From an uncultured Paracoccaceae bacterium (GTDB lineage: Bacteria > Pseudomonadota > Alphaproteobacteria > Rhodobacterales > Rhodobacteraceae), in the NCBI GenBank assembly GCA_947503765.1, contig CANNFA010000006.1:124001-188000 (forward strand): a DNA stretch of 64,000 nt. The letters are read 5' to 3'. Shown piece after piece: positions 45,993 through 51,512 of the stretch (its first letter is position 1; every line of letters begins with the position of its first letter). A program made the translations under genes and the position numbers. The notes under the pieces were generated by a model. It was not told the origin of the DNA. It was given only the letters and a program-made list of their open reading frames with translations, and did not search any database.

Positions 45993-51146
<5,154 letters not shown>

Positions 51147-51163
51147 CCGCCCGCTGCCGTTTT

Positions 51164-51188
51164 GTTCACGAATGTTCTTAAAAAGTTC
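51164..51188 (+). promoter_or_regulatory. LexA box (GTTC-N7-GTTC), with a third GTTC upstream
   Basis: GTTC occurs at 51164-51167, 51174-51177 and 51185-51188. The last two are separated by exactly seven bases (TTAAAAA), giving the canonical alphaproteobacterial LexA site GTTC-N7-GTTC. It lies 28 bases after the recG stop and 55 bases before the 40-codon ORF, within a short AT-rich stretch suited to a promoter. Confidence 0.8.
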
Positions 51189-51242
51189 TTTACATATTGT
51201 CGGAAATTTGAGAACAAAGTGGCAACAAGAGGGAACATCGAC

Positions 51243-51365
51243 ATGCTGTCCGACATCAAGGCCATCTTCGCCCGCTCTTCCGCAACGATCCTGCAGGATG
51301 CCGCCGGCGCTGCCGCGCTGGTGCTGATGCTGGTGGTGGCGCTGAACCTGTCCGCCCCGATCTGA
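51243..51365 (+). CDS. SOS-controlled 40-aa single-pass membrane peptide
   Basis: The frame MLSDIKAIFARSSATILQDA followed by AGAAALVLMLVVALNLSAPI gives an amphipathic N-terminal helix (1-20) and one membrane segment (about 19-38). AGAGGGAACATCGAC before ATG can serve as ribosome site. A longer frame to 51162 is open but would overlap the LexA box and add an unusual basic leader. The perfect LexA box upstream and strong terminator downstream define a dedicated damage-induced transcript. Size and topology recall SidA, the 29-aa SOS division inhibitor of Caulobacter, but I see no sequence match I can claim. Confidence 0.65.
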   Translation: MLSDIKAIFARSSATILQDAAGAAALVLMLVVALNLSAPI

Positions 51366-51473
51366 GGAAACCCGTTCCGACCTGCCTGCGTTCTGTCATT
51401 CCGCCGGCTTGCGCATCTGTCCCCACAGACCCCGCGCGGCCAACTGCCTGACCGGATCGAACAGACGCCCCTG

Positions 51474-51512
51474 ACCGCCGCCTCCTCGTCCCGGGAGCGC
51501 GGCGGTTTTTTT
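51474..51512 (+). terminator. Intrinsic terminator of the SOS-peptide transcript
   Basis: ACCGCCGC (51474-51481) pairs with GCGGCGGT (51499-51506), with an inner CTCC/GGAG extension, and is followed by a run of seven T. It lies 109 bases after the 40-codon ORF; the sequence between holds no other gene. Confidence 0.85.

Follow-up and report, generated by a model that had tools for sequence, protein, structure and literature searches.

The locus directly downstream of recG in this uncultured Paracoccaceae bacterium raises the question of whether a very short ORF behind a LexA-type box is a gene in its own right and, if so, what its product would do when DNA is damaged. A sequence-only reading of the window (the whole 64,000-nt stretch of DNA analyzed here) had proposed a dedicated, damage-induced micropeptide. 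All of the parts it described were found in place, namely a GTTC at 51164, the box GTTCTTAAAAAGTTC at 51174-51188, the 40-codon ORF, and a stem-loop followed by seven T residues (Table 1). It had missed the inverted operator and the -35 element, also listed in Table 1, as well as the structured 3′UTR.

Table 1. Features of the recG-micropeptide locus, in positions of the window.
Feature	Position	Strand	Basis or remark
recG, upstream neighbor	48675..51146	+	NCBIfam RecG equivalog NF008164, 1116 bits
Operator O1, GTTC-N6-GTTC-N7-GTTC	51164..51188	+	conserved across loci
-35 element, TTTACA	51189..51194	+	near-invariant TTTAC; TTGAC in some relatives
Probable -10 element, GAGAAC	51210..51215	+	register inferred
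Operator O2, GAAC-N7-CAAC, a LexA-type site in inverted orientation covering the -10 and start region	51212..51226	-	
Ribosome-binding site, AGAGGG	51229..51234	+	conserved Shine-Dalgarno-like motif
40-codon ORF, putative single-pass membrane micropeptide, MLSDIKAIFARSSATILQDAAGAAALVLMLVVALNLSAPI	51243..51365	+	homologues, pS/pN, predicted helix
3′UTR hairpin with TGTCCC (51418-51423) in the loop	51409..51439	+	compensatory stems in relatives
Intrinsic terminator, G+C-rich stem and T7	51474..51512	+	folding

Homologues of the peptide were found in 20 of 60 relatives with a single-sequence query, all belonging to the same family, and a 21-row profile search recovered them in 259 of a family-wide set of 298 Rhodobacteraceae genomes. 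The profile gave no match, at E values up to 0.001, in about 285 alphaproteobacterial genomes outside the Rhodobacteraceae. Conservation was counted over 118 loci read in detail (116 distinct loci), and a subset of closer relatives yielded 17 related loci. An ATG start was present in 115 of the 116 distinct loci and a Shine-Dalgarno-like motif preceded the ORF in 103, compared with none in a reverse-complement control; the ORF was exactly 40 codons long in 84 loci and 36-42 codons long in all. Synonymous and non-synonymous change were compared, as the sequence-only reading had suggested, and among pairs of sequences at least 60% identical the mean pS (0.64) exceeded the mean pN (0.26). Variability was highest at codon position 3 and lowest at position 2. 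In these respects the ORF resembles a translated gene subject to purifying selection, and a spurious ORF is rejected by the ribosome-binding site, the fixed length, and the excess of pS over pN.

Database searches placed the locus in no known family. Neither Pfam nor NCBIfam held a family for the peptide at E values up to 1, and no Rfam model came near its gathering score for the locus, by which a known RNA family was rejected. A tblastn search with the family consensus returned no phage or plasmid relatives; as it also missed the Paracoccus chromid copies, divergent members are invisible to that search.

Upstream of the ORF, the last two units of O1 form a perfect alphaproteobacterial LexA box just 5′ of the -35 element. 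GTTCN7GTTC occurred in 115 of the 116 distinct loci and the triple GTTC array in 105; both box and ORF are conserved in relatives, and the proposal was not refuted by the lack of such conservation that the sequence-only reading had named as its test. Around the -10 element, TGAGAAC showed 95-100% identity per position at a fixed spacing over the 116 loci. By analogy with the TAGAAC of lexA promoters the -10 element is probably GAGAAC, and transcription is expected to start near 51222. The inverted operator O2 was found as GAACN7CAAC in 107 of the 116 loci and as GAACN7GAAC in six, and a perfect GAAC-N7-GAAC was present in the divergent relatives G005, G159, G154, G276, G112, G119, G306, and G061. 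The C of the CAAC half-site is conserved at about 92%, which the plain LexA consensus does not explain. As a whole, the composite promoter reads GTTC-N6-GTTC-N7-GTTCTTTACA-N17-GAACAAAGnGGCAACA, with the consensus GTTC-rCAAAT-GTTC-TCAAAAA-GTTCTTTACA-(about 14 variable)-TGAGAACAAAGnGGCAACA, many positions of which are 95-100% conserved. When promoters were aligned on the third GTTC, the spacing to GAAC was identical in 108 of 116, and in the 116-locus alignment conserved 5′ sequence started only at the operator.

GTTC-N7-GTTC alone is expected 1.14 times by chance in a 64-kb window, so a lone box proves nothing; the source genome held 112 matches vs. 47 for the reversed pattern. When the 96-nt intergenic stretch was shuffled, the box had a P of about 0.0007 and the triple GTTC-N6-GTTC-N7-GTTC appeared in 0 of 20,000. 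The core pattern of the composite promoter was present in 178 of 298 Rhodobacteraceae genomes, at most once per genome, with 0 matches for the reversed control. A chance occurrence of the box is rejected through this conservation across loci and genomes and not through the rarity of the box itself. Simple scans of the window flagged neither the promoter nor the long, bulged terminator stem, and both calls rest on conservation and on folding. As a separate observation, an ORF for a BglII-type restriction endonuclease (L149; G000:C2 near 272278) has GTTC-N7-GTTC boxes both at its start region and inside it, possibly by chance.

The same box precedes lexA, recA, imuB (IMS-family polymerase), uvrD, and mmcB in the source genome. 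In six genomes, recA and lexA carry the same elements at similar positions, and the recA promoters of these genomes contain GAACAAGAGGCGAAC, or a near variant of it, 3′ of a GTTC near the -35 element and at the position corresponding to O2. LexA control of the micropeptide promoter is predicted with near certainty. The conserved operators, promoter, start codon, ribosome-binding site, and length, the purifying selection, and the near-universal presence in the Rhodobacteraceae together give strong comparative-genomic support to the proposal of a dedicated micropeptide with predicted induction by damage, and it is very probable that the product is LexA-regulated, translated, and a membrane peptide.

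Residues 20-37 were uncharged in all 84 of the forty-residue members, with K6 and R11 on the N-terminal side of the hydrophobic stretch, so that by the positive-inside rule the N-terminus would be cytoplasmic. AlphaFold2 returned one helix (residues 2-36; mean pLDDT 83.8), which for a lone helix adds little beyond the sequence. D19, G22, and L34 were invariant, and T15, L26, L30, and P37 were kept at 94-97%. Conservation tracked one helix face, formed by residues 19, 22, 23, 26, 30, 33, and 37 (p 0.0006) and extended by residues 5, 8, 12, and 15. One-sided conservation of this kind would be expected if the helix packed against a protein partner, and less so for a generic membrane-disturbing peptide. 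Such a face would fit any membrane partner and does not name one.

Our main reading, to which we assign a probability of roughly 0.57, is that LexA represses an SOS micropeptide whose conserved helix face would contact a partner in the inner membrane, with the divisome as the likeliest candidate, and would thereby hold division back during repair. In the course of events that we infer, from LexA binding and induction through topology and target to division arrest, LexA would occupy a pair of operators that face each other, O1 at the -35 element and O2 across the -10 element and start region, and would hold the promoter shut until DNA damage gave rise to RecA filaments and LexA self-cleavage. 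The derepressed promoter would then yield an mRNA of about 290 nt. Its 40-residue product would enter the inner membrane as one helix, with the basic N-terminus inside and a short tail outside, and a face made up of D19, G22, A23, L26, L30, G/A33, and P37 would dock on one particular membrane protein. FtsW and its partners, which carry out septal wall synthesis within the divisome, would be the likeliest target, and division would be delayed until repair.

The divisome is favored since SidA and YneA, the nearest analogues in function, act there. SidA binds FtsW (PMC4211646), the transmembrane (TM) helix of YneA binds TM7 of FtsW, and AlphaFold3 places SidA, SosA, and ChiZ on FtsW too (PMC13396833). 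In addition, deletion of lexA in Caulobacter leads to filamentation owing to SidA (PMC12700426), and the open-access papers that we searched describe no further SOS division inhibitor from the Rhodobacteraceae. On this analogy and from the conserved helix face, action on the divisome and a likeness to SidA are plausible, the former being slightly better than an even bet.

Single-pass micropeptides induced by the SOS response are already known as a functional kind. An SOS-type promoter and one TM helix in a very small protein, which mark the class of small SOS-induced membrane division inhibitors, are both found here. SidA of Caulobacter crescentus (29 aa; PMC4211646) is also a tiny, single-pass, inner-membrane protein of an alphaproteobacterium under LexA control, whereas the micropeptide is about 40 residues long and occupies another genomic place in a different clade, and its profile matched nothing in the roughly 285 alphaproteobacterial genomes from outside the Rhodobacteraceae. 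DidA of Caulobacter (71 aa; FtsN) is a damage-induced, single-pass division inhibitor, as proposed for the micropeptide, but is SOS-independent (DriD), whereas the micropeptide has a LexA-type promoter and is without a periplasmic domain. The Gram-positive SOS division inhibitors YneA, SosA, and ChiZ share SOS control and one TM helix with it. However, all three also have an extracytoplasmic part, a LysM domain in YneA and ChiZ and an extension in SosA, whereas the micropeptide stops about three residues past the helix. For the sequence family, the near-universal promoter, and the structured 3′UTR, no description was found in the open literature, though closed papers or supplementary tables may mention them. 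The gene occurs in nearly all sampled Rhodobacteraceae genera with a very constant LexA-type promoter, yet is without a curated protein family, and as a single gene that can readily be deleted it is a candidate for a damage-linked stop of division in the Rhodobacteraceae.

A different role is suggested by two E. coli peptides, TisB and DinQ, both of them SOS-induced, single-TM, and comparable in size. In this role a hydrophobic peptide would depolarize the inner membrane and slow growth with no protein partner, possibly under antisense control. The likeness extends to size, single helix, and LexA control, and DinQ, which is SOS-regulated and has a single TM segment, depolarizes the membrane (PMC3567139). 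TisB and DinQ are, however, type I toxins with antisense RNAs, and at the micropeptide locus there was no sign of a type I antitoxin: antisense sigma-70-like promoters were found at 2 of 118 loci, near the shuffled level of 1 of 118, in a weak test that covered only that promoter type. Since conservation begins only at the operator, little room is left upstream for an IstR-like RNA. The micropeptide also shows stronger positional conservation than TisB or DinQ, and its helix face with the invariant D19, G22, and L34 points to a specific partner. We regard a role of the TisB or DinQ type as unlikely.

The conserved face would equally suit an SOS-induced accessory subunit that tunes a membrane protein outside the divisome, such as a respiratory complex, a transporter, a protease, or an envelope sensor. 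Many single-pass micropeptides tune transporters or oxidases, which speaks for this possibility. On the other hand, the neighboring recG and iron-sulfur scaffold genes suggest no such target, and LexA-controlled membrane micropeptides of known role are often division inhibitors (PMC13396833), leaving an accessory subunit distinctly improbable.

The transcript itself may have a second role. A terminator was recognized in 92 of 116 loci, and the median distance from stop codon to T-run was 174.5 nt. CTGCCTG and CTGTCCC recurred in the 3′UTR (51366-51512 in the window) far above shuffled counts over the 116 loci. In the hairpin that holds TGTCCC in its loop, the stem sequence varied among species while pairing was kept: a locus's own flanks scored 6.56 vs. 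4.38 for flanks redistributed among species (z 8.5), and stems of at least 5 bp were found in 51 of 71 (37 distinct). Copies of TGTCCC further 3′ showed no such covarying pairing. The hairpin is less pronounced in the window, where the 3′UTR pairs differently in its minimum-energy fold; this 3′UTR nevertheless folds better than its shuffles (z -2.74). The covarying hairpin implies that the transcript may also serve as a regulatory RNA, and a small RNA derived from the 3′UTR is possible. In some bacterial small RNAs it is a C-rich loop that pairs with ribosome-binding sites, and pairing of this sort by the UGUCCC loop is a lead only. The locus is in any case an example of a micropeptide mRNA carrying a structured 3′UTR.

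Precedents in Rhodobacter sphaeroides are CcaF1/CcsR and RSP_7527/UdsC, in which the mRNA of a small protein has a 3′UTR with small RNAs (PMC8625941, PMC9779115). The promoter of UdsC is of the RpoHII type, whereas that of the micropeptide is of the LexA type, and for this reason UdsC/RSP_7527 was set aside as the R. sphaeroides version of the micropeptide gene. One might, from these precedents, the hairpin with its constant loop, the recurrent motifs, and the 3′UTR fold, take the transcript mainly as the precursor of a small RNA whose UGUCCC loop pairs with mRNAs, the peptide being secondary. However, the ORF is under clear selection of its own and has a ribosome-binding site, the 3′UTR of Paracoccus looks different though promoter and ORF are kept, and the hairpin is weak in the window, all of which make an RNA-first gene highly improbable. 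We tentatively suggest, as a possible though doubtful combination, a dual-function SOS gene in which one LexA-controlled transcript would provide both a division-arresting micropeptide and a UGUCCC-hairpin RNA that regulates mRNAs. If true, this would amount to a two-armed, family-wide damage checkpoint for the Rhodobacteraceae.

Thirty-nine of the 298 genomes had no profile match, and the recG locus was read in 29 of them. At least 20 of these 39 apparent absences were divergent peptides of about 36-44 residues, built on the same plan and mostly located behind LexA-type boxes (sixteen genomes together with G084, G306, G311, and G061); they are assigned by position, promoter, and pattern, the profile scores not being significant. 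In the other nine of the 29 loci, nothing recognizable lay behind recG in seven (G223, G195, G012, G138, G222, G082, and G021), the promoter was at a contig end in G248, and G190 fell in neither class. With divergent copies in 20 of the 39 and none behind recG in seven, a patchy presence of the peptide was rejected.

Among the seven peptide-less genomes, LexA was not found in three (G223, G195, and G012), all of which have recG, and it was likewise not found in one of about 46 peptide-bearing genomes, that one being 74% complete. Peptide absence tends to accompany LexA absence (Fisher p about 0.005, with 46 used and 45 in the final tally), a correlation that is post hoc and ignores relatedness, and is therefore supporting only. 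LexA is kept without a detectable peptide behind recG in G138, G222, G082, and G021, which counts against a LexA-division reading. That the GTTC/GAAC array belongs to a non-LexA regulator and the gene is not SOS, as the N6 spacing of the third GTTC and the conservation of the CAAC half-site might suggest by departing from the classical LexA consensus, is extremely improbable given the elements shared with recA and lexA in six genomes, the divergent relatives with a perfect GAAC-N7-GAAC, and the tendency of peptide loss to follow LexA loss.

The synteny with recG that the sequence-only reading had pointed to is conserved, recG being recognized immediately 5′ of the ORF in 116 of the 118 loci read in detail; recG is probably not part of the SOS unit. 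In G084 (L180, contig C21 near 20140), a divergent peptide ORF and the promoter are found side by side at a distance from recG, and the unit is thus able to move in one piece. A terminator-like stem-loop over the recG stop codon (51136-51156), just 5′ of the first operator, might separate recG from the SOS unit. The annotation of Paracoccus ferrooxidans, the one annotated relative examined, is empty from recG to the iron-sulfur scaffold gene, although the operator, promoter, and a short membrane ORF are present in that gap. The Paracoccus micropeptide is shorter, at about 31 residues. In Paracoccus denitrificans, P. ferrooxidans, and Pseudorhodobacter turbinis (L222, L223, and L224, respectively), recG and the unit are located on large replicons of plasmid type (1.5-1.7 Mb).
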